Below, in pieces: positions 3,835 through 37,182 of a stretch of DNA of 64,000 nucleotides (its first letter is position 1; each line of letters starts with the position of its first letter). Made by a program: the position numbers and the translations under genes. The notes beneath the pieces were generated by a model. The model saw nothing but the letters and a program-made list of their open reading frames with translations. It did no database searches and was not told the DNA's origin. The stretch spans positions 19,445,863 to 19,509,862 of the forward strand of contig NC_049985.1 of assembly GCF_000003815.2 (NCBI RefSeq). The letters run 5' to 3'. This DNA comes from Branchiostoma floridae. Taxonomy: Eukaryota; Chordata; Leptocardii; Amphioxiformes; Branchiostomatidae.

Positions 3835-4148
3835 TATACACCCATACACACACGCGCACACACACACACACACACACACGCACACACACAAGCACACACA
3901 CACACACAAGCACACACGTGCATACATACAAATACACACGCACACAGAAATACAGACACACATACATATACACACATACACACACATACATATAGACACA
4001 TACATAAATACATATACGTATACATACATATACACATACATACATATACATACACATACATACATACATACATGTACATACACATACATACATATAAACA
4101 CATACACACATACACACAAGCGCAAACATACACACACACTCAACACAC
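3835..4148. repeat. CA/ACAT microsatellite beside the gap
   Basis: The stretch is almost pure (ca)n and (cata)n runs ending at the N block. Long open frames of His-Thr or Cys-Val repeats through it are artefacts. Its complement (TG) also begins right after exon 1 of the intact UGT gene at 28490, so this may be intron 1 of the truncated UGT copy. Confidence 0.9.
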
Positions 4149-4248
4149 NNNNNNNNNNNNNNNNNNNNNNNNNNNNNNNNNNNNNNNNNNNNNNNNNNNN
4201 NNNNNNNNNNNNNNNNNNNNNNNNNNNNNNNNNNNNNNNNNNNNNNNN
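4149..4248. other. Assembly gap (100 N)
   Basis: Exactly 100 N, the usual placeholder for a gap of unknown size. It interrupts the minus-strand UGT exon and separates it from the CA repeat. Confidence 0.98.
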
Positions 4249-4619
4249 AGGAGATCGCAGTGTTGAGTCCAGCATTTGAACGCCTCTTGAAAGTGTTGAA
4301 AAATACGGAACACAGACTGGTTAGATATCTCGCTCATCTGGCCTGTGAGGGTTTCTACCCGCGCAAAGCTTCTCTGGTCATCGAATGAATCAAACCGCAA
4401 GTCCGGCCTCTCCGCCCGACGTTTGGCCACGATGTCCTGGGAGACGACGGCGGTGACATCGTGACCCCTCGCCGCCAAAGCCTGGCCGACTGACGCTAGA
4501 GGGAACCAGTGGCTGCCCGCTATGGCCGGCGGGACAATGAGAACCCTCTCCGCACCGATAACGTGAACTCCCAGGCATATCACCACACATAACAGTACGT
4601 ACCGTGATACAGTCTCCAT
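4249..4619 (-). CDS. UDP-glucuronosyltransferase N-terminal fragment, cut by assembly gap
   Basis: The minus strand opens with METVSRYVLLC at 4619 and gives about 123 residues matching the start of the intact UGT at 27634, with roughly 20 substitutions by eye. It keeps the hydrophobic signal peptide, the catalytic-histidine motif GSHWFPL and RGHDV. The frame runs open into the N block with no stop, so damage is not proven; the rest of exon 1 (about 480 bases) may simply be missing from the assembly. About 300 bases upstream also match the UGT promoter region at 27330-27630. No downstream exons are found to the left, where a plus-strand lectin exon lies instead. It could be a functional paralogue, a partial duplicate or a mis-join. 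Confidence 0.8.
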
Positions 4620-4960
4620 TGCGTTGGGCTAGCCAAAGCACAAACCGGAAGTAGTTCGCGATATGTGACCGTGAAGCTCCGAACGTGTTTCGAATATTGT
4701 TGGCAGGTCTTTAAAGATGGAAACAAGTTGACAAAGGCGTCTGTGTTCCTCTGACAATAACACTAAAATTTGTAACGCTCTGTAGACTTGTTTTTACCTG
4801 GAATATTCAGGAGTGAGTCGTCCTCTCGTTGAAACATGTGCGTGGTGAGTGCTTTCGCAAAATGGCCGATCGGACGATGACCTGTGCGTTAGCACAGGAG
4901 GTCGTTGCTATAGTGATGACATGAGGTCATCAGCCTCGAGTGATATCCAAGCAGATGTGA

Positions 4961-10014: not shown

Positions 10015-11209
10015 AGCTTTTATTCCCGGACAGATCTAAATTTTATTTGAATCGCTCGCACAGGGAATGCTGTTTTTCTACACACACACAAACACACATA
10101 CACACAAATGCTACCCAAATTATGAACTTCTTCATATTAATGACATTCTATTTACGATATATGTAGTGTAGTTTACACTGTGCGAAAGGGTGTGATTTCC
10201 GGACAAAGTCGGAGTTGACATATTTTTGGACATGCTAAATATTCGGACTGTGTCCGGGCACGATGTTCAATATTTCCCATATCTGGAAATATCATGAGTC
10301 AGGAATTGTCTTGTTATGTATCCGGACAAATAAGACTTTCCTGCTTTTCAAGATACGCGCCATTGACGTTTCTTGCCTCCGAATACGTGAAATGTTCTAC
10401 ATTCTTTACATATCCAAGGTCCATATATTTCGATAAGGAATACCCGGACAAATTAGGAGTTTGCACGAAGCATGATGTGCATTATTTCTGGGCCATTGTC
10501 AGATGACATTTTCAATTCATTATGTCTCAGAATATCATGAGCCATGAAATGTTTCAGCACATGCCCGGACGGATAGAATTTCCCGTTCTTCCGAATACGT
10601 GTCAGGGACGTTTCATGTTTTCGAATTCATACTATTTTCTTTTCTTTCCATTTACCAGACATATCCGCGATATTCCATGGATTAGTTTTAGGACAGATTC
10701 GAAGTTAGCATATTCTGACCGTTGCCGATAAAGGCATTCTATACGTGAATTGTGAATCGGTGATTGTTTTATTGCGCATCTGAACAAATAAGACTGCATT
10801 TTTTTTGCCGAAATTTTCGCTCCTTCCGAATTCATATTCCGTTCCATTTACGACAGATGTCCAAAACAGAAACATTCCAGAGATCAGTTTTCGGACCACT
10901 TAATGGTTAACAAATTACTTTTCTTGTCATACATGAATCTGAGATTGTTTTGTTGGGTATCCTTAAAAAGGTTTCCTATCTTGTCAAATACACGTCATTA
11001 ACGTTTTTGCTTCTGTATATGTGTTTTTATTCTACAACGAGTATGCCCGATGTCAATGTATGTTTACTCTTTAATTTTCTGGTAATTGAAGCTTAGGCTT
11101 CCATATACATGTGCAAATATACTGACATCGACATTTACAATCAAATGACACAGAAAGCAATCTTTGCGATGGTAACAATTATGAGTCAAGTATTATTGTT
11201 TCTTTGCAT

Positions 11210-11735
11210 ATCCGGACAATATCTTGAACAAAGTTCAGTCAAAATACTCCACCCCAGCGGTGCAGTTTGGGATAGGTCCATATCCGGACAATATCATGAA
11301 TAAAGTTCAGTCAAAACACTCCACCCCTGCGGTGCAGTTTGGGATAGGTCCATATCCGGACAATATCTTGAAAAAGTTCAGTCAAAACACTCCACCCCAG
11401 CGGTGCAGTTTGGGATAGGTCCATATCCGGACAATATCTTGAAAAAGTTCAGTCAAAACACTCCACACCAGCGGTGCAGTTTGGGATAGGTCCATATCCG
11501 GACAATATCATGACAAAAAGTCACTCATGATATTGAATACCAGCGTTGCTGTGTGGGAATGGCCCATATCCGGACAATATCACGAGGCAACTTCAGTCAA
11601 AACACTCCACACCAGCGGTGCAGTTTGGGATAGGTCCATATCCGGACAATATCATGACAAAAAGTCACTCATGATATTGAATACCAGCGTTGCTGTGTGG
11701 GAATGGCCCATATCCGGACAATATCACGAGGCAAC
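11210..11735. repeat. Subterminal minisatellite, about 70-bp units
   Basis: At least seven units each contain 'atatccggacaatatc' followed by a variable part such as 'gttcagtcaaaac' and 'gcggtgcagtttggg'. The last units alternate between two versions (gttcagtcaaaa and aaaagtcactca), giving a higher-order dimer. Open frames through it are repeats, not a protein. Confidence 0.9.
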
Positions 11736-12819
11736 TTTACTCGTAAAGCGGTTATGCAAGCTGTGCAAAGTGCCGAGCAGACCAGTACGTTGGCATGTCA
11801 ACGGTGCGCCTACTGGGGCAGTCGTTGCAGATAACAGCCTACACCACGCCACAGCGTTTGCTGCTGTGTACAACTTTGAAACTGGTAAGTACATGATGCA
11901 TTTATTCACAAAAATAATGCACAATGCCATATGTTTCCGTGAAACAGGCATGATGGATGACACTAACTTGCTTGGAACCATCTGGAGGAGTCCTTAGGTA
12001 ACAAGACTATATTAGGAAGTCACATGACTTGACTAGACCAATAGTAGACCAGCTGGTGACAACAGTTAGGTTTGAAACTAGATTTGAATCTCAGTTGCCG
12101 CTGCCGCTAGCCGCTACCGGACCAAGAAGTGAGTAGTGTAGCTCTCTAGTACATAGATTGTATATACATAGCAGTTACCGTTCTTAGTTCCGTATATGTC
12201 TGTCAGCAATGTCTGTTATCCCTTCCTAGTGTTTTGTGTATTTAATAATTAGTAGTGTGATCTCTTTGTAAAGATTGTTGTATGATAGATCAATTCTCTT
12301 TCAGCTGGAACCCCCGCGTGTCATCCCCGGCTTGTTTACAAATTGCCCGTTCCATAGTTAGTTAAATTCTCATATTATTTTGTGCCGCAGTGTATGTGCC
12401 GTAACGGCTGCTTCTAAACTTTCCTGTTCTGTTGTTCTAGCTGGCTTAATCTTTCATAGAACCAAGGAGAAACTGTAATCTCCTCACTAGGACCAATGTG
12501 ATTGTGTGCATATAAAATTCCATTCGTTCTCTGGGGATCCTTATCTGTGCCATCTGTGTGGCCCGCACCCTTTGATGATAGCCGACTCCAGATTCCTGCC
12601 TTTGTCCCCGTCTTGTCCTGCTGTGATTTTTATGGCCGTGTTGTTTGAATAATTTTACATGTACCGTTCATGGGTTCCGGGCAGTTACTAGCCGTTTTTT
12701 TCCATTCCAGCCGCTGAGCCTCTGTTTCCCAATTGCCTGTCCTGCCATGCCGACGACCGAGGCCTACCTCCTGGTAACACTTACGACAGTCTGTGACCGG
12801 TGCCGTTTAATCCTGCCAG

Positions 12820-18751: not shown

Positions 18752-21700
18752 ATGTTGCGACAAGTAAGGATGAACCAACATGGCAGCGGAGCGAGCGCCG
18801 TGGAAAAAAGCAACAAGAGGGATGACGTCAGGAGAGACGACGTCATGAAGGACCTTGACGTCATCACTCGTGACGTACCCTCTGCCCTGATGCCCGTCGT
18901 GGGGGGTCTCACCTCACGGCGCAAGCGCGTGCCCTACTGGTATACGTACGACACTCGAGGGTCGGAGATTTATGAGGAGTATGTGTTAATTGTTCTCACC
19001 CTCAAGGTGCAATCTCACTGTACTTGCGTCAAGCTTGCGTCACTGCTGGTGGTGGTTCGTCTGAGCCTTAAATTCTTCCCTTATGTTTCAGGGTGGCGAC
19101 AACATCTAAGACGTATTTAAACTGGCATAAGGAGCACAGCGTGCTCCAGAGTCATAGCGACGACATTGCAGCCGAAACGACGTCCCCTGTCATCTTGGTG
19201 GAGCTCGGCAGCGGCGCTTCCTCCAAAACCCGCTTGATCCTAGAGGCGATGCTGAAGCGTCACGGAACCCTGACGTTTGTGCCAGTGGATGTGTCCAAAG
19301 GTAAGGCTTATGTAAGGTCAATTGTGCTGGTGCCTGTCGGGGATGTAAAAGTCTAATGAGATTCTCCTGTTAGCTTTCGAGAAGAGATGCCTGATGGCGA
19401 GTCTCAGTGTTTCACTCCGTGATCGTATTTCGAATAAGTAAATAAGAGCGAGACTGGTTATAGAAAACACCATTGTCGATGCCATCAGACTCAGATTACT
19501 AAGGTGGTTTGGTCACGTTGTCAGAAGACCACCAAACACAATAGTCCACAAAACAAATTAATATCAAGATTTCCAAAAGCGCAGGCCACGGGAGAGACCC
19601 CCGAAGTGATGAAGAGACCAAATTGCAAAGGACATCGGACAGAGTATCAAGTTTGCGGAGATGAGTGCGAAGAATCGTGCACTTTGGAGAAATCTTACGA
19701 ACAGGAGCAAGGGGCCTTAGGCAGGTGGGCAGGTTGTCGGGGATGTAGCCCCGGCTTCCCTTCCATGCCACAGATTTGTCCCGGTGGACTGCGGGATATC
19801 GGGGGTACTCCTCCGTGTTCATCGCGGTTAGGTCAGGGCGTTTAGCATTTCCGAACCGTGGCCAGGTCGGGCAGCTTTTAGGAGCAAATAGAACGATATA
19901 GCAAATANNNNNNNNNNNNNNNNNNNNNNNNNNNNNNNNNNNNNNNNNNNNNNNNNNNNNNNNNNNNNNNNNNNNNNNNNNNNNNNNNNNNNNNNNNNNN
20001 NNNNNNNNNGGGCGCTGGTTTGTGACCTAAGCCTTAGTTTTAGTCCATAAAACGTCAACCCCGTGTTTGGGCGGGCTTCCAAAAAATAGTACCCAGGGAG
20101 CCACATGGTGTCTTTTATGTTCAAAAAGGTTTTGTAGAGTGGAGTAGACCCATCAGTTCAGTTCATCCTCTTTTTGGAGGTGACACCTGTGTGCTCAAGC
20201 TATATCGGTATCTTTCGGACCTTAGTAAAACATTTGAAGCCCCATTCCTTTACCATTCAGCCTGTTACCCAGACAGTGTTTTGTCGCGTACTTTTATGTT
20301 TCAATGTCTATTCTTTTCCTTGGACAGAACACATCGAGGAGGTCGGTCAGCAGCTGGAGCGAGATTACGAAGGATTGACTGTGGAACCGTTCGGAGGTCT
20401 CTACATGGAAGGGATCCGCCATCTTTCCACCCGCAAGGAGCCGAAGATGCTGCTGTTCCTGGGTGGCAGTTTCGGCAACGTCTGCATCCACGAGCAGGTG
20501 GACATGATGAAAGAGGTCCGGGCACAGTTAACGGGTAGGCACTAGCTATAGTCAGTCATCACATGACTCTAGTAGGGCCTTCACACTAAAACCGAATTAG
20601 CTGGAATCAAGCAGAACCAGCCGGAATGAAGTATTTGCAAAATTCGCGCCACATTCGGGGCTATTCGGGTGGAAATTCCAAATGGACCTTATATCCCCTT
20701 CACACGAGAAGGAATGAGCCAAAATGTCGTCAGAAGGAAAATTTTCTTTCTATTCCTGGGAATTCGTGGTTTATTATAGAAATCCTAACTGCATTCCAGA
20801 CATTCTGGCAGGATTCGAAGTGGCTTCCGTTTCGGTTCTCCATCGAATGAGATAAGAAAGTTTGGAATGCCGTAGAATGTGGTCATACTGCAGTTAGAAT
20901 AGTTAAGACACACTTAGAATACACTTTGAATGCAGTTCAATATTTCTCCACTTTAAATGCACCTTTAATTTTTTTAGCATGTCAAAAACTTTCGGTACAG
21001 CCGAAAGAACGGGCACAAATATCTAGAAAGCAGTGAGATTATCGAGAATACACTACGAAATCCCAGGAATAGAGAAGAATTTTCATTCGGACGGCAATCC
21101 CGCTCATTCTTGCTCTCCTGTGAAGGGGTCTTGAAGGTCTTTACACGAGAAGCGGAATAAAGTCGGCATGCTGTCAGAATGGCTATTCTTTGCATGTTCC
21201 TGGGTGTTCAACATGCATGCTATAAATTCTCACTGCGTTCTGGATATTTCTGCCCATTGGAGCCGTCACGAATGTTTTTGTCATGCTCAAAGCTTTCGAG
21301 GTGCATTTGAATTGGAGAAATATCGAATGAAATTCAAAGTGCATTCTAACTGCAGTATGACCGCATTCTACGGCATTCAAACATTCTTGGAAACATTCTG
21401 ATCTCATTCGGTCGAAATATTAAATGGCAAGACTTATCAAATATTGCCAGAATGTGACCAAACGAATATGTTGAATACAATAAGAATGTGTAGAATGCGC
21501 GATAAATACCCTGAAATAGACAAAGAATAGTTATTTTGACGGCGTTTCGGCTTATTTTTTCTCGTATGAAGGTGATATAAGATTCATTTGAAATTCCCAT
21601 CCGAATGTGGTACGACTATTGCAAATTCTTCATTCCGGGTGGTACTGTTTGATTCCTGCTGATTCGTTTTCAGTGGGAAAGCATAACACAAGTATTTTAT

Positions 21701-24700
21701 ACTCAGTCTGTCTACGTTTTTGTCATATTTTTCTTTTAATGCATGGCATGCATTTGCTCCTTTCACAACTGTTTCTCTTACTCTCTCTTTCTCTCTCTCT
21801 CTCTCTCCCTCTGCCACTTTCTCTCTCTCTCTCTCTCCCTCCCTCTCTCTCTCTCTCTCTCTCTCTTTCCATGTGCCGTTTAAACGGAGAAAATATGATG
21901 TTTCCGTACATATCTTCACAACACACGCGAATATATTCTTACGCCGACAACTGATGCTAGACCGTCATGCATTGCATGACTCGAGGGTTCATTATAGCAA
22001 CAGAAGTTCTTCTACTTCTACATCATAGTACATACATGGTATGGACAGAAACCTATGGACAAAGTGCCTCATGGCACATCTTCTACACAAGTGATGTGTA
22101 AAATAAATCACGATTAAATGCTTTCAGAATCGTTCATATACAGCGCAGTAAAGAACCTATTGTTGTTAGACGGGCGACATACGTAATATGGCAATTTTAC
22201 ACTTTCATCTGCTTCTGGTCCGTTCGGCGCCGACAACTTGCCAAAAAAGCGATATCCAATACCCCTTCAAAGTGAATATTTCAGGCTGATATCTCTCCAT
22301 AGCAATTTCCTTACTAAACACTACCCATGCGCCAGTTTAAACGGAGAAAACATCATGTTTCTGTACATTTCCTACAACGCACACAGATGTTTTCCTTTGT
22401 CGACAACTGATGCTAGACCGTCATGCATTGTATGACTCGAGGGTTCACTGTCCTCCTTCCAACCACGTACGTAGTACTGTAATAGTAATTACAGGACAAA
22501 GGTCGGTGGGGAACCCAAATGGAACAATAATCTTGTTGTGTTTAACTTATAGCGTTTAACATGCGACCAAGATAGGATAATAATAAAGTGTAACGAAATG
22601 ACCTTGCCATGTGTAACGAAATGACTTCGTGATGTAACGAACCGACTGTAACGAAAAGGCGATGTAACGAAACGACCGGTTACCTCTCTTTCTCTCTCTC
22701 TCTCTATATATGCATATATTGTAAATGCATCAATCAAATGTACTTAAAAATGTTTACTGAAGTCAAGTTTGCCATTAGATGACCCATGTAACATTAAATG
22801 TGCTTGTCTCTGTGATAATTTGCCAACTAACTGTTTCGACATCTAGCCAAGGACCGTTTCGTACTCGGGCTTGACATGAACATGGATCGGGAGTCTCTAC
22901 TGGAGGCCTATGGTCAACAATGGGCCAACAATGTGCTCAACAATCCCATCGATCGCCTGAATAAGGTGACATAAGTTGTTGTTTTAACAGGTTTGCAGGT
23001 GCAGGCGGTGGGGGTTCCGTATCGTTAACAGTCGTTGTCGTTTGAAACGGTCGATGGAAGATCCTAGCGCTTGATGACTTTTTTTCGTGAGATCGCATGG
23101 CGTGATTGGCAGCGCGTTGGGCTCTGGCCCAAGAGGTCCTGAGTTCGAATCCCGCTGTGCCATAGATCTTGTGCCCTTGCTAATTCGAAAAGGCACGACT
23201 GTCCTTTTCACGTACCGTTCGCACAAGACATCGACCGTTTTAAATGGCAAAAAAAAGTTTACAAGACGAAAGTTAGCAGAGGTGTTGCTTCGTTAGCAGG
23301 TTTGGGGTAACTAGTCATTGCGTCCTGCCGCGGTATGATTTGATGTAATGTACCCGACTCCAGGACTTCGATGGTGACATGGATGCGGCGAAGTTTGAAC
23401 TCGTCACCGAATTTATTGAGAACCCTGCAGACGGAGATACTCCGAGCTACGTTATGGGGTATTGGAGGAGCTTATCTGAACATCGCGTGTACTTTCGTAA
23501 GTTTGACATATGAATTTGACATTGACATTTGATATAAGGCCACAGCTAGTAAATTTTCTGGATGACATCTTCTGCAGACTGCAAAAAAAATGAGACAGGG
23601 CGAAAAAAAAAGTTGGGTTAAAAAAAAAGATTTAAAAAGAGACATCATAAACGTTGTAACACACTTTAAGTGACAAAATGTGGCATTGTAGCCGACGACG
23701 CATTTATTCCAGTATTTAAGAAGTGTACTAGAAGTGACACTAGTGTGGTAGACTTGCATCACTAACCGTGTTGGCAACTAATCATGGCTTCCATATTGGT
23801 GCCACTCTTATAACATTACTGTGCAGCAAGTTTCTGCAAATACAGTCAAGGCTACCACTCTAGTGTCACTTCTACATAGAACTGATTAGGTTACAACACA
23901 ACTTATGTACCCATTTTGGTCTATTTGACAATCCCCGAAAAAGAAAAAAAATCTTCTTTTTTTTCGTCTGGAATTAGACAAAACTTAATGAGCGCGCGGA
24001 TGTCATCCATAAAATGTACTTGCTGTGGCCTAATTGTCGTTATTCAAGACCGCTATAAGTTCATCATTCGTCCGTAAACGCTTGGGCTTTGAGTAACTAA
24101 TGCAGATATACGGGCACGAACATGGCGGTGGACGCAGTGATGACATCACGTCACGTGAAAGCGCTCTGTTAGTATGCCAAATAGAAGTTTATCAAGAAAC
24201 TGAATCGGTCAGAGGTTTCAGGTAGCATCCATTACTTTTAGTTAACGACAATTAGCAAGATCTGTTAAAGACCAGGTTTTTGATCAAAACGCTGAATTGA
24301 TATAAAATGAGATTAATATTATATCTAGTGGTTTGAATATGTATGTATTTGCAGTATCTGATAAAATTGATTTCAAATTTTTGATGCTCTGATTATTATA
24401 GTTCGTTCCTACCTGCGGTCCTGTATGGCTAAAGATATACGTTTGAATCATGGATGCCTTCTTTGCAAGAGGTTTGAAAGTAGCCTGATTAAATCTCGCT
24501 TATAGCAGCCCGCCAAACATCCGCCGGCCCCCTAGAGGAGGGGAGGGGTCAGTTACAGCCCTGGACAGCGGAGTTTGTGTTACACAGACTAGTTTGAAAC
24601 TGACAACGTACGTTTTTGTCCTTATCCTCAACTATCAGGCAAACTTGGCCTCAACCTCGACTTCCAGAGGGGAGAGAAGTTTTTCTTCACGGACGGGCCG

Positions 24701-24829
24701 AACTGGAGCTGCAAGTGGAGCCTGCACCAGATACGCCGCCTGGCGGAGAAGAGCGGATTTGCACTGGAGGACTACTGGACCAACGATGCAGCAGATTATG
24801 GCGTGTTTTGCTTCGCGCCTGCGCCGTAG
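18752..24829 (+). CDS. EgtD-like SAM-dependent amino-acid N-methyltransferase (Methyltransf_33 family)
   Basis: Six exons read through in frame: 18752-18978, 19092-19300, 20328-20534, 22847-22965, 23364-23496 and 24639-24829 (TAG), giving 361 aa. The ATG follows the acceptor 'tgtttccccag', so a 5' untranslated exon is likely; M7 is an alternative start. Family features: YDTRGSEIYEE (about 66-76), SAM motif VELGSGASSKTRLIL (112-126), FVPVDVSKEH (138-147), LFLGGSFGNV with Asn196, AKDRFVLGLDMN (215-226), LLEAYG with Tyr236, MGYWRSL (285-291), and NWSCKW (320-325). Bacterial EgtD makes trimethylhistidine for ergothioneine; fungal EasF relatives methylate an ergot precursor. EgtD has Glu-x-Ser where this protein has Asn320-Trp-Ser, so substrate may differ. 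No EgtB or OvoA partner is visible. A foldback MITE begins 19 bases after the stop and holds an AATAAA at 24989. Introns carry LINE, SINE and foldback insertions. Confidence 0.85.
19462..19735 (+). pseudogene. LINE ORF2 C-terminal remnant in methyltransferase intron 2
   Basis: The plus strand reads IVDAIRLRLLRWFGHVVRRP, then, after a stop and frameshift, RPRERPPK, two TGA stops where tryptophans are expected, and RDQIAKDIG...MSAKNRALWRNL. This is the C-terminal tail typical of RTE-like LINEs. Frameshift and stops show it is dead. Confidence 0.7.
19908..20009. other. Assembly gap (about 100 N)
   Basis: Run of N inside intron 2 of the methyltransferase gene. No exon appears lost, because exons 2 and 3 join in phase and match the family continuously. 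Confidence 0.97.
20574..21685. mobile_element. Composite foldback element, copy 1 (intron 3 of methyltransferase)
   Basis: The outer arms (agggccttcacactaaaacc... and ...gctgattcgttttcagtg) enclose two further inverted-repeat units, each bounded by 'cttcacacgagaa' on the left and a 'tgtgaagggg'-like end on the right (about 20697-21130 and 21132-21578). The same three-part layout occurs at 45489-46795. Confidence 0.7.
21775..21868. repeat. CT microsatellite
   Basis: Pure (ct)n broken by two c-rich interruptions. Reverse frames of Arg-Glu repeats are artefacts. Confidence 0.95.
21874..22450. repeat. Direct duplication of about 115 bp
   Basis: The segment 21874-21988 recurs at 22334-22446: both start near 'gtttaaacggagaaaa' and end 'atgactcgagggttca', sharing 'gacaactgatgctagaccg'. 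The copies are separated by about 345 bp within intron 3 of the methyltransferase gene. Confidence 0.8.
23091..23260 (+). mobile_element. tRNA-derived SINE-like sequence (methyltransferase intron 4)
   Basis: The acceptor arm gcatggc (23095-23101) pairs over 7 bp with gctgtgc (23153-23159, two G-T wobbles). Pol III box-B-like agttcgaatcc is present and an anticodon-like stem ttggg/cccaa encloses a 6-nt loop. The T stem is broken, so this is not a working tRNA. An unrelated tail follows and ends in an A-rich run (ggcaaaaaaaag) near 23255, as in SINEs. Confidence 0.6.
23534..24033. mobile_element. Foldback element (aggccacagc family)
   Basis: Left arm aaggccacagctagtaaatt...ggatgacatc is mirrored at 23997-24033 (ggatgtcatcc...gctgtggcctaa). 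An inner pair (agaagtgacactag / ctagtgtcacttct) forms a second stem. It lies in intron 5 of the methyltransferase gene. Confidence 0.75.
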
Positions 24830-27241: not shown

Positions 27242-27633
27242 GTTGATTGATTAACAAATGCCAACTATGAAATTTAGGGCCTTATTTGTATAATGTATGC
27301 AAAAATGCAATAGTTTCCGCATTGATGGGAATTTCATCACTATAGCAACGACCTCCTGTGCTAACTCGCAGGTCATCGTCCGATCGGTCATTTTTCGAAA
27401 GCAGGGCACATGTTTCAACGCGAGAGGACGACTCATTCTTGATTATTCCAGGTAAAAAACAAGTTTGTCGAGCATTACAAGTGTTACTTTTATTGTCAGA
27501 GGAGCACAGACGCCATTCTTAACTTGTTTCCATTTTTAAAGACCGGGTCTCCAACATATTTGAAACACATTCGAAGCTTCACGGTCACCTAACGCGAACA
27601 ACTTCCGGTTCGTTCTTTTGATAGCCCAGCGCA

Positions 27634-30600
27634 ATGGAGACTACATCACGGTATGTACTGTTGTGTGTGATGATATGTCTGGGAGTTCACGTTATCGGTG
27701 CGGAGAAAGTTCTCATTGTCCCGTCGGCCGTATCAGGCAGTCACTGGTTCCCTCTAGCGTCAGTCGGCCAGGCTTTGGCGGCGAGGGGTCATGATGTCAC
27801 CACCGTCGTCTCCCAGGACATCGTGGCCAAACGTCGGGCGGAGAGGCCGAACTTACGGTTTGTGTCCTTCGATGACCAGGGAAGCTTTGCGCGGATAGAA
27901 AACCTCGCGGGCCAGATGAGTGAGATATCCAAGCAATCTATGTTCCGTATCTTTCAACACACACAAGAGGCGTTCCAATACATTTTTCAACACTGCGATC
28001 TCCTATTAGGGGACGGTGATCTTATGGGCAGGCTGAAACAAGGACGTTTTCAGGTTGTCGTCACCGAGCCATTCATGTGTCCGTGCGGGGCCATAGTCGC
28101 AGCCTACCTGGGGGTACCACACGTTGCCCTCCTTCGCGGTGATCCTTGGGGGTTTGACGGCCGTGCCACCGGCGTGCCCCGCCCCCCATCCTACGTACCG
28201 TCTATCATCTCCCCTTTTACCGACCGGATGACTTTAAAAGAGCGTGTAAGGAACACTGTTATGTCGTTTGCAGTGACTATGGTGTTCCAGTGGTTCTTAG
28301 CAGGCGCAAACAACAACCTCGTCATTAAGTACCTCGGTGAGAAGGAGACTCTCCTGGGGGTTGTGGGGAAGACGGACGTGTGGTTGTATCGAATCGATGT
28401 TTTGCTGGGCCTCCCGGCACCGACGATGCCCAACATGGTCAACGTCGGAGGGATCAACGCCCGAGAGGCCAGTCCACTTCCAGAGGTGCGTGTGTGCGTG
28501 TGCCTCTGTGTGTGAAGTTGTAGGTGTGTGTGTGTGTGTATGTGTGTGTGTGTGTGTGTGTGTGTTTGTAGGTGTGTGCGTGTGTGTGTGTCTCTGTATG
28601 TGAGTATAAAGTTGTGTGTGTGCCTCTGTGTGTGTGTGTTCGTGCGTGTGTGTGTGTGGAATTGCTCAGTATGTGTGTGTACCTCTCATGCTGTGTGTGT
28701 ATGTAGGTATGTGTGTGCGTGTGTTTGTGTGTGCCTCTGTGTGTATGTGTAGGTGTGTGTGTGTGTGCCTCGGTCTGTGTGTATGTGTAGGTCATAGTTT
28801 GTGTGCCTCGGTCTGTGTGTATGTGTAAGCGGTACATATGTGTTCCTCGGTCTCTGTGTAGGTGAGTGTGTGCCTTGGTCTGTGTGTATGTGTAGGTATG
28901 CGTGTGCCTCGGTCTATGTGTATGTGTAGGTGTGTGTGTGCCTCGGTCTGTGTGTATGTGTAGGTGTGTATGTGCCTCGGTCTGTGTGTATGTGTAGGTG
29001 TGTATGTGCCTCGGTCTGTGTGCATGTGTAGGTGTGTGAGTGCCTCGGTCTGTGTGTATGTGTAGGTGTGTATGTGCCTCGGTCTGTGTGTATGTGTAGG
29101 TGTGTGTGTGCCTCGGTCTGTGTGTATGTGTAGGTCATAGTGTGTGTGCCTCGGTCTGTGTGTATGTGTAAGCGGTGTGTGCCTCGGTCTGTGTGTATGT
29201 GTAGGTGTGTATGTACCTCGGTCTGTGTGCATGTGTAGGTGTGTGTGTGCCTCGGTCTGTGTGTATGTGTAGGTGTGTATGTGCCTCGGTCTGTGTGTAT
29301 GTGTAGGTGTGTATGTGCCTCGGTCTGTGTGCATGTGTAGGTGTGTGATTGCCTCGGTCTGTTTGTATGTGTAGGTGTGTATGTGCCTCGGTCTGTGCGT
29401 ATGTGTAGGTGTGTGTGTGCCTCGGCCTGTGTGTATGTATAGGTATGTGTGTGTGCTTCGGTCTGTGTGTATGTGTAGGTGTGTGAGTGCCTCGGTCTGT
29501 GTGTATGTGTAGGTGTGTATGTGCCTCGGTCTGTGCGTATTTGTGGGTGTGGGTGTGCCTCGGCCTGTGTGTATGTATAGGTGTGTGTGTGTGCTTCGGT
29601 CTGTGTGTATGTGTAGGTGTGTGTGTGCCTCGGTATGTGTGTATGTGTAGGTGTGAGTGTGCCTCGGTCTGTGTGTATGTGTAGGTGTGTATGTGCCTCG
29701 GTCTGTGTGTATGTGTAGGTGTGTGTGTGTGTGCCTCGGCCTGTGTGTATGTGTGTGTGTGTGCTTCAGCCTGTGTGTATGTGTATGTGTGTGTGAGTGT
29801 GCCTCGGCCTGTGTGTATGTGTAGGTGTGTGTGTGTGTGTGCCTCGGCCGGTGTGTATGTGCAGGTGTGTGTGTGCCTAAGCCTGTCTGTATGTGTGTGC
29901 TCTCTCGTCAGTTCCAGACTTCCCTGCGGCACTGGAGCTTACAGACACGTCGCAGTTGTCGACTAATAAAGTCTTCACACATCTCTCTTCTGTACAGGAT
30001 TTAGAACTATTCATGCAGAGTTCCGGCCCTGCCGGGGTCGTGGTCGTCAGTTTCGGGTCACAGGCCAAGACCATCAGCCTGGAGAGGGCAGAGGTCATGG
30101 CAGCAGCCTTCTCACGGCTCCGACAGAAGGTTGTGTGGCGGTACGTGGGAGAGAAGCCGGTCGGTCTGGGTAACAACACCAAGCTGATGTCCTGGCTGCC
30201 TCAGAACGACCTCCTGGGTGAGTAATGGTGACCAAACAATAAGCACGTTCAGCATTCCGAATACGCATGTGCAGCGACAGGAACTGTGGGTAATATGTCA
30301 AAGGTTAAGGCCCAAGAGTTGTTAACAACATAATCTCAACCATTATCTTGATTTGCATAACACTACCCAGACGTGCCGTGATGTTAGTAGGATGAACCTT
30401 ACTTATTCACATGGACCAGGAATAGACTTCAAATCCTTATCTATTGTGTCTTGCTCTTGGAAGGCAAGCCAACCTTAAGGTTATTTTGTTTCCTCTCAAA
30501 GACAACGCTGTAACTGTACGCTAGAAATGATGCACAGCAATTTAGCCCACTTTGTTCATTTTGCAGGTCACCCGAAAACCCGAGCCTTCGTCACCCATGC

Positions 30601-31898
30601 GGGTTCTAACGGCCTGTACGAGGCCCTGTACCACGGCGTGCCGGTGGTCTGTACCCCGCTGGCCGGGGACCAACCCGGTAACGCCGCCCGGGCGGTGTCC
30701 AAAGGCCTGGGAGTGATACTCGACTTCCACACGCTCACATCAGAAACAATGTATCAGGGTATAACACAAGTTATCACTGGCAATAGGTATGTATTACTGA
30801 CTTTATGTTACACCGCGATAACGTTTGTTATGCTTCGGTAACAATTCGGCCTGTGCCCGCCGGGTGTGTAGCCCTGGCCGTCCGGTTCCGAAGATACAAG
30901 TTAGTCCCAGTCGACTACAGGCTACTGCGAGTGCACGTGGTGCTCTAACGTGTAGGTCACGGCATCTATTTGCCGCCATGTCCCGGACTGATTTTAATTC
31001 CGATAAAAAGACATTGATTGCTCGACGGAAACCCTTTTTCTAATTAATGTAAGCTTAATGGGTGATTACTGTTATCACACGGACTTCTGTTGAATAATTC
31101 AAATGCATTTCGAATGTAGCTTTTACAGTGGTCAGAAGTTGCAGTGAAGATTGAAAATGGCGAACTTAAAACATTCCCATTTTTAAGTAATGACTGTAGC
31201 ACTATGTTAATAGCAGTGTGACGGTAAATATATATATATATAAATTGCTGTTAATGGACCACAGGGTGCACTGATTTTTGCGGCAACACATGCAAACGCG
31301 AAGATGAAAGAACTATCTATTGCTTCGCCAGAACCCCTTTCTTGCGTGAACAAACACCTATCTAGGCCCATATTATGCATACCATTGACCTCATTGCCAA
31401 ATTTGTCTTTTATTATTAACTAACTGAGTGTGTTTTTGTTTCAGCAAAGTTAGCTAAGTCTCTTCATCATTGTTAATCTGATGCAAGGCATTGTTTGCGG
31501 CAAGACCAATAATGTGATTTCTCAATACGTTGTCTATGCCTTGAAAACAGCAAATCTTCCTTCAAATGCACCCTGTTATACTACTCTTAGAATATCTGTA
31601 CTTGTATGCCCGTAGCTACCGTGAGACCGCAGCCCGCCTGTCCCGCCTGCACCGTGACCAGCCCCAGCCACCCATGGAACGGGCCGTCTGGTGGATAGAA
31701 CACGTCATCAAACATGGCGGACTGCCCCATCTCCGCGCACGCGCCGTGGACCTGCCGTGGTACCAGTACTACCTGCTGGACGTGACTGCGTTCCTATTGG
31801 CTGTCTGTACAGCTGTCCTGGGTACCGTCTGGTACAGCTGTTCGTTCATCTGTAGGAAGATGTGCTGTAAAAGTGGCGGCAAGCTGAAATCTCAGTAG
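27634..31898 (+). CDS. UDP-glucuronosyltransferase (UGT), complete four-exon gene
   Basis: Exons 27634-28485, 29998-30217, 30567-30786 and 31616-31898 (TAG) give 524 aa, the usual UGT length. The enzyme transfers a sugar from a UDP-sugar to small lipophilic acceptors in the ER lumen. Seen: signal peptide 1-23; catalytic-His motif GSHWFPL (His37) and RGHDV; acceptor domain to about 284; VVVVSFGSQ; and the donor-binding signature with [15 protein letters not shown] and [15 protein letters not shown]-terminal transmembrane helix ([13 protein letters not shown] onward) is followed by a short basic tail ending KLKSQ, which fits a KXKXX ER-retrieval signal. At the position of the catalytic-dyad Asp (usually in an ADPF or ADAL context) this protein has TEPF, Glu145. 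AATAAA lies at 32101. Intron 1 is filled by a minisatellite. The upstream 300 bases are shared with the truncated copy at 4249-4619. Confidence 0.95.
28490..29890. repeat. TG-rich 34-bp minisatellite filling UGT intron 1
   Basis: After about 250 bp of (tg)n the array settles into units of the type 'cctcggtctgtgtgtatg' plus 'tgtaggtgtgtatgtg'. Successive 'cctcgg' starts at 28941, 28975 and 29009 are 34 bp apart. Over 25 units with point and length variants are present. Long open frames on both strands are artefacts of the absence of stops. Confidence 0.95.
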
Positions 31899-33911: not shown

Positions 33912-36900
33912 TCACTCACTCACTCAGCTCCGCTTGCTCCGAAGAGGAGCGTAGCGCCTCTGCATACCGATCTCCAGGCTGATCTGTCTCTGGTTGCCTC
34001 CCAGGCTGCGGTGATGGAAAGGCCGGCAGTCTGCTGTAGGTCGTTGGCCAGTTGGTCGAGCCAGGTGCGTCTAGGTCGTCCTCTGGGGCGGGACCAGGTA
34101 GTGGGGTTTGGTTCTCTCAGCAGGACGACAGGTTCGGGAGGTGGTTCTGCCCGGGCAAGGTGGCCAAAGAGGCGGAGCCGGGCAGAGCGGATCTTATGGG
34201 AAAGTGGTGGCTGATTGGTGATGCTACGTAGGGTTGTATTTGAGACATGATCATACCATCTGATCCCTAGGATCCTGCGTTGGCATTTTGAGTCAAAGGC
34301 ATCCAGGCGTTGTTCCTGGGTGCCTGTTAGTGTCCAAGTCTCAGCGCTGTACATAAGAATAGAAAGCACAAGGCTGTTGTACAGTCTGATCTTTGTTTGA
34401 GTGGAGAGTTTCCTGTTGGACCATACGTTGTCCAGGCTAGCCATCGCGGATGCGGCGCGGCCGATACGGATCTGGATATCAGCATCACTCTTGCAGTCGG
34501 ACGTAATTGTGCCACCGAGGTAACAGAACTTGTCCACAACTTCAACAGGATGGGAGTTGATGACAAGTCCTGCTGGGGGGGTCTTGAAGTCACTGAGGCT
34601 TTGGGCCTTGGTCTTGTCCCAGCTGACCATCAGGCCAAGAGGCTGAGTTTCTGCATCCATGGCCTGCAGAGCAAGTTGGAGAACTTCCATGGCTTCGGCC
34701 AGGATTGCCACATCATCTGCATAGTCCAGATCTGTGATGGTGACATCGCCGAAGCTGGCTCCGCACGCACACTGGGCCACTGTTCTCCCCATGACGTGGT
34801 CGATAGCTGTGTTGAACACTGTCGGGGCCAGGACACAGCCCTGCCGGACTCCACTGTTGATGTTGAAGTTGTCGGATAGCAGCCCATTGACTCTCACACA
34901 GGAAGAGGTGGCAGAGTACAGGAGGGAGAGAAGGTTGATCAGCTTGCCCGGGACACCAAGGATTCTGAGGATCTTCCAGAGAGCCGGTCTGTCCACAGAA
35001 TCGAATGCCTGTTTCAGGTCTACATAGGCTGCATAGAGTGGTTTTCTGAACTCCCTTCTCTTCTCAGCCAGCAGACGGAGGGTCAGGATTCTGTCGACGG
35101 TGGAACGCCCTGGCGTGAAGCCGCTCTGTTCCTTTCTCTGCTTGCGTAGAAGGAGAGGACGGAGTCTTGCAAGTATGACATTAGCAAACACCTTTCCTGG
35201 GACACTCAGAAGAGTGATGCCTCTATAGTTGCTGCACACATCTTTCGGGCCCTTCTTCCAGAAAGGGAGGATGACACCTTGGAGCCAGTCGGCTGGGACG
35301 GTCTCCTCCCTCCAGATAGTAGCAAACAGGTGATGAAGCTGATCTGCAACCGTGGGTCCACCATGCAGTAGCAACTCTGGGGTGATGCCGTCGGCCCCTG
35401 CAGCCCGGCCAGGCTTTAGCTTCCTAATGGCCTTGACAACTTCCTCTAGAGACGGGGGAGCTGTTGGGACAGAGTCGTCCTCCATGGCCGAGGCCGCTAG
35501 TGCTTCCAGCTGGGGACAGGGGGGAGGTGCTGGGCGGTTCAACAGACTCTGAAAGTGTTCCCTCCATCGTGCCAGCTGTTCTGCCGGGGTGTCTGGGATG
35601 GTACCGTCCAGGGCTTTTACACAGGAAGTAGGTGGTGTGGTTTTCCCGGAGAGGGTTCTTAGGGTCCTGTGGAGGGAGCCTTGGTCGCCTCTGCGGGCAG
35701 CCGCCTCAGCTTCCACCGCAAGGTTATCAACCCAGTTCTGTTTATCCTTGTGGAGCAGGTGGTTGCGTCTGGCATTGAGTCTTCTAGATTCCATGTGGTT
35801 GCCTTCCAGTCTAGCTTTCCTCCTTGCCTCCACAACGCTGAGGGTTTCATCTGACAGGAAGGCCTTCTTCTTCTTCTTTCTCCTGGGCCCAAGCACCTTG
35901 GCTGCAGCGGAGGTGATGTTTTCCTTAAGGTTCTCCCAGAGCTTCTCTGGGCTGTCCCCGTCTGTGTCCGTAGATGTGTCAGTGTCTAGGACAGCGAAGC
36001 GGTTGTGAAGTTCCAGTTGAAAACTGGCTGCAACTTCTGGCGACCTCAGTTTGGACACATCCACCCTGCGCTGGACTTTGGCTGCGGGATCCCTTTTCAG
36101 TCGGAGGCAGACTGTCATGGCAAGCAGCCTGTGATCGGAATTCCCCAGCTCCGCACTGCGGTAGACACGGCAGTCGGTTGAGGTGTGCCAGCGACGGCTG
36201 GTAAGGATGTGGTCCAATTCTTTTCTGGTGCGGCCGTCGTTGCTGATCCAGGTCATGCTATGAATTAGCTTGTGCTGGTAGAAGGAGCGCTCCGATCGTA
36301 AGCGGAAGTTGGAGCAGAATTCTAGGAGCCTTAGGCCGTTGTTATTGCAAGTACCGGTTCCATGAGGGCCCAGGGCATTCTCAAACCCAGATCTGTCTGA
36401 CCCGATTGTGGCATTGAGGTCGCCGAGGATCCAAACTATGTCATGCCTGGAGATGTCCGCCGTGAGTGATGACAGCTGGGTGAAAAACTCGTCTTTTTCC
36501 TCATCTGCTGCCATGTTGGTCGGTGCATAGGCTACAATGATGGTGATTCTGCCGTAGCTGTGGCGTAGACGGGCGAGAAGCAGTCTATTGTTCACTGGTT
36601 TCCAGTAGACTAAAGCTCGAGAGGCATCTGGCGCTAGGGCGAGTGCAACTCCTTGGCGATGCTGGCCGTCGTCCCTGCCAGACCAGTGGTAGCTGTAGTC
36701 ATTTGATACGTGGGTGCCAGAACCAGGCCAGCGCACTTCCGTGAGGCCTGCTACTGAGACGCTCAGTCGAGACAGCTCATTGGCGACAAGCTCAGCTGAG
36801 CCTTCCCTGTTCATGGACAATACATTCCAAGTTGCGACTCTTAATGAAGCAGTTCTGCTAGGCTTATTTCGTAAGTCCATCCGGTCCGAGGTCGAGGTTC

Positions 36901-37182
36901 CAGTAAGATCCGTCCTATTTGAGTTCTGTATGCGAGGATTCGTAGCAGGCTTGTTTTATGTGGTGGGTTGCTAGCCCGACGCACAACCCCGGCTGAATTT
37001 GTATACCGCCCATCGAGGACTGAGGCGGTGCAGGTGCTATTGGCCAGCTGCAGCTCCCCTGGGAACCGTCCCATCATGGTTGAACCTGCCAGGGGTGAGG
37101 GAGCACCACAGGTGAACCTGCTGGTGCTCCGCCCAACCCCCGATGGTATCGCAACCCAGGGTCATTGCAGCAGCCGTTGTCC
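33912..37182 (-). mobile_element. RTE-like non-LTR retrotransposon, apparently near full length
   Basis: The direct repeat GGGGCTAACC (33902-33911, 37183-37192) flanks a 3.3-kb minus-strand LINE. Its 3' end (left) terminates in a short (tgag)n tandem tail. The 5' end includes a 78-codon open frame (37077-36841) that overlaps the main ORF start, as small leader ORFs do in RTE-type elements. Confidence 0.85.
33920..36880 (-). CDS. LINE ORF2: APE endonuclease plus reverse transcriptase, intact 986 aa
   Basis: One uninterrupted frame. The N-terminal AP-endonuclease-like domain (about 1-265) has ATWNVLSMN, LTEVRW, VAYAPTN, ILGDLNATIG and the catalytic NSDHRLL. The reverse transcriptase (about 480-780) has AGADGITPELL, NYRGITLLSVPGK, EQSGFTPGRSTVD, VDLKQAFDSVDR, SGVRQGCVLAP and the catalytic YADDVAIL. 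The tail has CQRRILGIRWYDHV, RLRLFGHLAR and RPRRTWLDQLANDL. This order and the tail resemble RTE-like LINEs; clade was judged by eye. With no stop or frameshift, the copy may be recent and possibly active. Plus-strand open frames here are shadows. Confidence 0.95.
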   Translation of the reverse strand: MDLRNKPSRTASLRVATWNVLSMNREGSAELVANELSRLSVSVAGLTEVRWPGSGTHVSNDYSYHWSGRDDGQHRQGVALALAPDASRALVYWKPVNNRLLLARLRHSYGRITIIVAYAPTNMAADEEKDEFFTQLSSLTADISRHDIVWILGDLNATIGSDRSGFENALGPHGTGTCNNNGLRLLEFCSNFRLRSERSFYQHKLIHSMTWISNDGRTRKELDHILTSRRWHTSTDCRVYRSAELGNSDHRLLAMTVCLRLKRDPAAKVQRRVDVSKLRSPEVAASFQLELHNRFAVLDTDTSTDTDGDSPEKLWENLKENITSAAAKVLGPRRKKKKKAFLSDETLSVVEARRKARLEGNHMESRRLNARRNHLLHKDKQNWVDNLAVEAEAAARRGDQGSLHRTLRTLSGKTTPPTSCVKALDGTIPDTPAEQLARWREHFQSLLNRPAPPPCPQLEALAASAMEDDSVPTAPPSLEEVVKAIRKLKPGRAAGADGITPELLLHGGPTVADQLHHLFATIWREETVPADWLQGVILPFWKKGPKDVCSNYRGITLLSVPGKVFANVILARLRPLLLRKQRKEQSGFTPGRSTVDRILTLRLLAEKRREFRKPLYAAYVDLKQAFDSVDRPALWKILRILGVPGKLINLLSLLYSATSSCVRVNGLLSDNFNINSGVRQGCVLAPTVFNTAIDHVMGRTVAQCACGASFGDVTITDLDYADDVAILAEAMEVLQLALQAMDAETQPLGLMVSWDKTKAQSLSDFKTPPAGLVINSHPVEVVDKFCYLGGTITSDCKSDADIQIRIGRAASAMASLDNVWSNRKLSTQTKIRLYNSLVLSILMYSAETWTLTGTQEQRLDAFDSKCQRRILGIRWYDHVSNTTLRSITNQPPLSHKIRSARLRLFGHLARAEPPPEPVVLLREPNPTTWSRPRGRPRRTWLDQLANDLQQTAGLSITAAWEATRDRSAWRSVCRGATLLFGASGAE

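Follow-up and report, generated by a model that had tools for sequence, protein, structure and literature searches.

EgtD, a histidine N-alpha-methyltransferase whose product is hercynine, belongs to a group of enzymes that starts ergothioneine synthesis; animals do not make ergothioneine, according to two papers (PMC7653990; PMC9396837). As described in another, the carboxylate of the EgtD substrate is bound by Tyr206, Ser284 and Tyr56 and its alpha-amino group by Asn166, the imidazole is contacted through a water positioned by Thr213, and Asn166 and Glu282 are named as important residues (PMC8593015). Elsewhere, fungal Egt1 is described as having an N-terminal domain of the EasF family (PMC9396837), TrpM of Psilocybe, an N,N-dimethyl-L-tryptophan synthase, is placed in methyltransferase family 33 (PMC12603985), and OvoA, which carries a transferase domain for S-adenosylmethionine (SAM), is reported for the lancelet Branchiostoma floridae (PMC4768315). 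Here, we describe a predicted B. floridae gene for a protein of the EgtD family (Methyltransf_33, PF10017). The gene occupies positions 18752-24829 of a 64,000-nucleotide stretch (assembly GCF_000003815.2, contig NC_049985.1, positions 19,445,863 to 19,509,862, forward strand), which is called the window throughout. It is one of 14 related loci, whose substrate pocket appears to have been altered on the side that would face the side chain of an amino acid.

The predicted protein matches PF10017 with 208.8 bits (E = 1.3e-61; the Pfam gathering cut-off is 23 bits) over residues 49-357 and profile positions 5-302 of 304, in agreement with the family assignment made in an earlier note on the window. 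A Pfam scan of the 361-amino-acid product revealed no other domain at E <= 0.001, and the absence of a fusion to a sulfoxide synthase, also remarked on in that note, therefore holds. With the more specific NCBIfam models, the protein scores 174.4 bits against the EgtD equivalog TIGR03438 (curated cut-off, 290.9) and 119.2 bits against the EasF family TIGR03439 (curated cut-off, 205.55). Because it falls below both cut-offs, we place it outside both curated groups. Solved relatives found by phmmer (E <= 0.1) comprise six distinct sequences, all EgtD.

Six exons on the forward strand join into 1086 bases that encode 361 amino acids without a stop, and all five introns have GT-AG ends. The coding part of exon 1 (18752-18978) holds an N-terminal extension and the motif YDTRGSEIYEE, with Tyr66 and Tyr74 at the positions of EgtD Tyr39 and Phe47. 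Exon 2 (19092-19300) provides Tyr84 and the SAM-binding motif VELGSGASSKTR, and exon 3 (20328-20534) provides the FLGGSFGN loop with Asn196 (EgtD Asn166); PF10017 matched both of these exons in the genome search described below. In exon 4 (22847-22965), LLEAYG includes Tyr236 (EgtD Tyr206), and the column of EgtD Thr213 is a gap. Exon 5 (23364-23496) carries the segment DGDTPSYVMGYWRS, with Gly286 in the Met252 column, and exon 6 (24639-24829, including the stop codon) carries FTDGPNWSCKW, with Asp317, Asn320 (Glu282 column), Ser322 (EgtD Ser284) and Lys324. The earlier note had proposed the same six exons and continuous protein; the joins were confirmed, and Asn196, Tyr236, Asn320 and Ser322 are where it had placed them.

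The same joins were obtained with our own spliced aligner, which was guided by the window protein and so amounts to a check of the program, not to independent evidence. More independent support comes from the recurrence of the exon lengths in 12 of 13 other loci, in models that were likewise guided by the window protein. Both Met1 and Met7 can be matched in L108, the nearest paralogue. The bases preceding Met1 in the window (TTTCCCCAG, directly before the ATG) resemble a splice acceptor, unlike those in L108, and we therefore regard the 5' end of the window gene as provisional. Judged from its sequence, then, this is a spliced, animal-type gene encoding an EgtD-family protein.

The earlier note had treated the gene as a single one, and it had missed both the multigene family and an insertion considered below. 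A profile search of the genome with PF10017 (513,431,437 bases in 431 contigs; the counts are lower bounds) found at least 26 exon matches, which we grouped into 14 loci: the window gene on C7, three loci on C5, five on C10 and one each on C2, C4, C15, C16 and C277. We modelled the other 13 with our spliced aligner, using first the window protein and then the family profile as guide. Exon lengths of 209, 207, 119 or 122, and 133 bases are the ones that recur in 12 of these 13 loci. All joins across the family have GT-AG ends apart from two GC donors, one following exon 4 of L119 and the other in the doubtful first exon of L113.

As modelled, eleven loci, including that in the window, are domain-complete and stop-free, although L113 is unsure at its start and L117 in its last residues. 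L114 is very likely a twelfth, its exon 1 lying just beyond the modelled stretch at C277:11453-11557; it resides on a 42.7-kb contig, is 95% identical to L116 (dS, the synonymous divergence, is 0.104) and may be an allele rather than a separate locus. The remaining loci are one partial and one dead. The partial locus, L120, is missing the first two exons and has pieces of 217 (with an uncertain 5' end), 128 and 133 bases, in a stretch with 1921 Ns. The dead one, L112, carries an in-frame stop where Tyr206 would be and has lost Asn166, and no proper first exon was found for it; on this sequence evidence it is a pseudogene. In L110 (C4:32705500-32715400), an extra 325-base intron with GT-AG ends divides exon 3, so that the 207 bases occur in two pieces. 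Exon 3 is uninterrupted in the other modelled copies, and the copy-specific intron is likely a recent gain; no clear terminal inverted repeat was visible by eye in the insert. A protein search added matches to exon 5 or exon 6 at C5:1771057, C364:3349, C10:1784505-1786050, C10:18230715 and C10:18192055. Other exons are absent from the matches listed for these places, and some of the matches contain stops; they are perhaps remains of further duplicates.

Over the domain, identity to the window protein ranges from 0.55 to 0.82, with L108 the closest. Pairwise ratios of nonsynonymous to synonymous divergence (dN/dS, Nei-Gojobori) are 0.11-0.31 for 89 of the 91 pairs; the remaining two are saturated. 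In many pairs dS exceeds 1, where the estimate is rough. The window gene and L108 give a ratio of 0.29, calculated over 313 codons. We also built a maximum-likelihood tree from 13 lancelet and 69 bacterial rows. All the lancelet rows are set apart in it by a branch with support of 100 in the Shimodaira-Hasegawa-like approximate likelihood ratio test (SH-aLRT), and the midpoint root cuts this branch into segments of 1.91 and 0.35 changes per column. L112 was omitted from the tree, as were 18 of the 87 bacterial rows of the alignment, selected by name and each 74-96% identical to a retained row.

Those 87 rows, to which the pockets were compared, are the best 80 of 560 confirmed relatives (593 stretches matched), 6 of 49 matching plasmid records, and EgtD of M. 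smegmatis. Every one of them has Glu282, Tyr206, Asn166, Ser284 and Lys286, and in all of them the stretch from the GE pair to Ser284 is free of insertions. The lancelet loci keep the equivalents of Ser284 and Lys286 without exception (14 of 14) and those of Asn166 and Tyr206 in 13 of 14 each, the exception in both cases being the pseudogene. In the window copy, the equivalents of Asn166, Tyr206 and Ser284 are Asn196, Tyr236 and Ser322.

The positions expected to face the side chain are a different matter. The imidazole of histidine is contacted in EgtD by Glu282; substitutions there and at Met252 reportedly gave the Seebeck group a tryptophan enzyme. Where all 87 bacterial rows have Glu282, the aligned residue is Asn in all 14 lancelet loci (Asn320 in the window). 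The Met252 column holds Lys in four loci, Gln in four, Gly in three (including the window copy) and Leu in three, and this variability suggests, at the level of sequence, that the copies differ in substrate. The Phe47 column holds Cys in five loci, Tyr in four (again including the window copy), Phe in three and His in one, and is missing in one; the His belongs to L114, whose exon 1 was mis-modelled. At the Thr213 column, 13 loci including the window copy have a gap, and one has Leu. Moreover, the lancelet proteins have 4 residues more than EgtD between the GE pair and Ser322, a lancelet-specific insertion, and share the motif [DE]-G-x-N-x-S-x-K. The altered pocket noted earlier is thus supported by most alignments at the Glu282 column but was incompletely described, because the window copy departs at Phe47, Met252 and Thr213 as well.

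With moderate confidence, we read these loci as a diversified family of SAM-dependent alpha-N-methyltransferases that would act on an amino acid other than histidine. The family would have arisen by repeated duplication of an intron-containing ancestor. Its members mostly retain the SAM motif and the residues for the amino group (Asn166) and the carboxylate (Tyr206, Ser284 and probably Tyr56), while the side-chain side of the pocket seems to have been rebuilt through loss of the aligned Glu282 and the 4-residue insertion and, in the window copy, through changes at Phe47, Met252 and Thr213. We infer a changed side-chain preference because the residues that hold the backbone are kept and those that face the side chain are altered. 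An alpha-amino acid would be held by its backbone, and its alpha-amino group would be methylated up to three times to give an amino-acid betaine. The substrate would be something other than histidine, perhaps differing between copies. A more specific proposal, which we offer tentatively and consider rather doubtful in its full form, is that about twelve apparently intact EgtD-related alpha-N-methyltransferases of the lancelet make several betaines other than hercynine, and that which substrate each copy uses is determined by the [DE]-G-x-N-x-S-x-K insert together with the residue at the Met252 position.

Several points count against a substrate other than histidine, or against the comparisons behind that reading. 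The bacterial rows were picked by likeness to the lancelet protein and are a poor guide to Glu282 variation across the family, and the comparison set consists of lancelet and bacterial sequences only, with no fungal or other animal members. The equivalent of Tyr39, kept in 11 of the 12 lancelet loci that cover that part, is Trp in L113. The residue in the Tyr56 column depends on the method, being Tyr84 by phmmer and MAFFT with 8 rows and Thr83 by MAFFT with 88 and 101 rows. Four pairs that include the dead copy L112 also have low dN/dS (0.16-0.26), so low ratios do not prove that each copy works. Finally, MAFFT with 8 rows placed Thr316, not Asn320, at Glu282, and residue 317, beside the insertion, is acidic (Asp or Glu) at every one of the 14 lancelet loci and could act as the acid; to judge from the alignments, a displaced acid that replaces Glu282 is possible.

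This last point underlies the strongest of the alternatives, which we consider unlikely: the lancelet proteins may still be histidine N-alpha-methyltransferases that produce hercynine, the insertion having shifted the acid so that Asp/Glu317 stands in for Glu282. The invariant acid, the uncertain register left by the 4-residue insertion (which the 8-row MAFFT alignment gapped differently) and the fact that all solved relatives found are histidine enzymes speak for it. However, Asn320 is aligned with Glu282 by phmmer, by MAFFT with 88 and with 101 rows, and by HHalign in both Viterbi and realigned forms, the last program comparing 13 lancelet rows with the 87 bacterial rows at E = 8.6e-63. Aligning acid to acid requires two gaps, as counted on the sequences, and the window copy also departs at Thr213, Met252 and Phe47 and scores below the EgtD equivalog cut-off. 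Residue 316, the candidate from the 8-row alignment, is Thr, Asn, Cys, Tyr, Ser or Ala depending on the lancelet copy. The replacement of Glu by Asn320, as first proposed, is favoured by most alignments, and the Asn is present in all 14 loci, but the insertion, the invariant acid at 317 and the Thr316 placement weaken it.

A second alternative draws on the genes around the family. A Pfam scan of ten selected open frames in the window identified parts of UDP-glycosyltransferase genes downstream (27625-31895, forward strand) and upstream (4143-4628, reverse strand; 22.7 bits against a cut-off of 19.5), as well as a reverse transcriptase (33923-36955). Elsewhere, a UDP-glycosyltransferase cluster at C5:9622411-9636668 stops some 0.9 kb short of L109, a member of the family (C5:9637568-9642047). 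Gene families that expand in this way often encode enzymes for foreign compounds, and the lancelet proteins might act on something other than a free alpha-amino acid, such as peptides, decarboxylated amines or foreign compounds, and belong to a detoxifying set with the neighbouring UDP-glycosyltransferases, whose exons lie closely downstream of the window gene and near L109. We judge this improbable, since UDP-glycosyltransferases adjoin only 2 of the 14 loci in the stretches examined and the retained carboxylate-binding Tyr206 and Ser284 better fit an alpha-amino acid. No match to the UDP-glycosyltransferase frames of the window was found at the other 12 loci (E <= 1e-6; some 10 kb covered per locus, and a further 10 kb at two of them).

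The orientations of the UDP-glycosyltransferase genes differ between the two loci that they adjoin, and 115 UDP-glycosyltransferase exon matches occur genome-wide, so their proximity could reflect chance or ancient synteny. The window also contains a tandem array at 11207-11726 (72-base unit, 7.3 copies), which is overlapped by a 184-codon open frame at 11443-11994.

That the window gene might be a decaying or non-catalytic copy seems very improbable. Copies of this family do die, as the in-frame stop at Tyr206 and the lost Asn166 of L112 and the solo exons elsewhere indicate, but in the window copy the frame is open, the joins are GT-AG and the SAM motif is present, and its dN/dS against L108 is 0.29. 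Bacterial contamination or misassembly, conceivable only in that related proteins are common in bacteria, is rejected as far as sequence can tell, given five GT-AG introns, UDP-glycosyltransferase and reverse-transcriptase frames around the gene, and paralogues of equal exon lengths on other contigs, which mostly measure 19-35 million bases; the earlier note had already considered it contradicted by the introns.

Scans of viral and genome contigs with the single lancelet protein, which used exact 8-residue patterns and thus reach close relatives only, found no relative. Phage records gave none either, and an alignment of the lancelet family found none among viral contigs. A mixed alignment did retrieve viral contig L007 (3660-6124), in which, by eye, a phage-like frame continues into a C-terminal part resembling EgtD, next to an EgtB-like frame; it is probably a chimeric assembly and was set aside. 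On a plasmid of Streptomyces sp. NBC_00637 (L001), an egtD-labelled gene is flanked by two major facilitator superfamily (MFS) transporter genes, with egtB not in the stretch shown, and may serve something other than ergothioneine.

The protein family itself is already known from Pfam, and the lancelet genes presumably carry automatic labels such as 'histidine N-alpha-methyltransferase-like'. Among open-licence PubMed Central (PMC) papers, we found none that links EgtD-type enzymes with lancelets or that describes the lancelet expansion or its pocket; the only one found to contain both ergothioneine and Branchiostoma concerns OvoA (PMC4768315). Papers on tryptophan enzymes and on hypaphorine added little. 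A multigene chordate family drawn from the group that starts ergothioneine synthesis, with an apparently rebuilt pocket and low dN/dS, raises the question of whether any animal methylates histidine in this manner. A second testable question is which betaines lancelets make themselves. If the lancelet enzymes do make several betaines other than hercynine, these would constitute a branch of chordate metabolism undescribed in the papers searched.

Among the known systems, OvoA differs from the window protein in being a multidomain enzyme, the sulfoxide synthase that serves ovothiol synthesis, and in carrying a SAM-transferase domain of its own. We take that domain to belong to another methyltransferase family, and the OvoA C-terminal domain, suggested earlier for a phylogeny, may be a poor comparison. 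Two OvoA-like exon sets lie in tandem about 24 kb apart at C15:6113574-6143984, on a contig other than that of the window gene, with each exon below the whole-family cut-off. The fungal EasF-family domain (TIGR03439) resembles the window protein across residues 49-355 (119.2 bits) but differs in that the match is below the cut-off and weaker than that to EgtD, in a comparison of profile scores. EgtD (TIGR03438; structures 4pim, 7scf and others) shares the Pfam domain at residues 49-357, the SAM motif and the equivalents of Asn166, Tyr206, Ser284 and Lys286. Unlike EgtD, the window protein falls below the equivalog cut-off, has Asn for Glu282 in most alignments, contains the 4-residue insertion and is changed at the Phe47, Met252 and Thr213 positions, and the lancelet gene is spliced and multigene. 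TrpM is fungal and, with its family 33 taken to be PF10017, offers a precedent for a family-33 enzyme that acts on an amino acid other than histidine.

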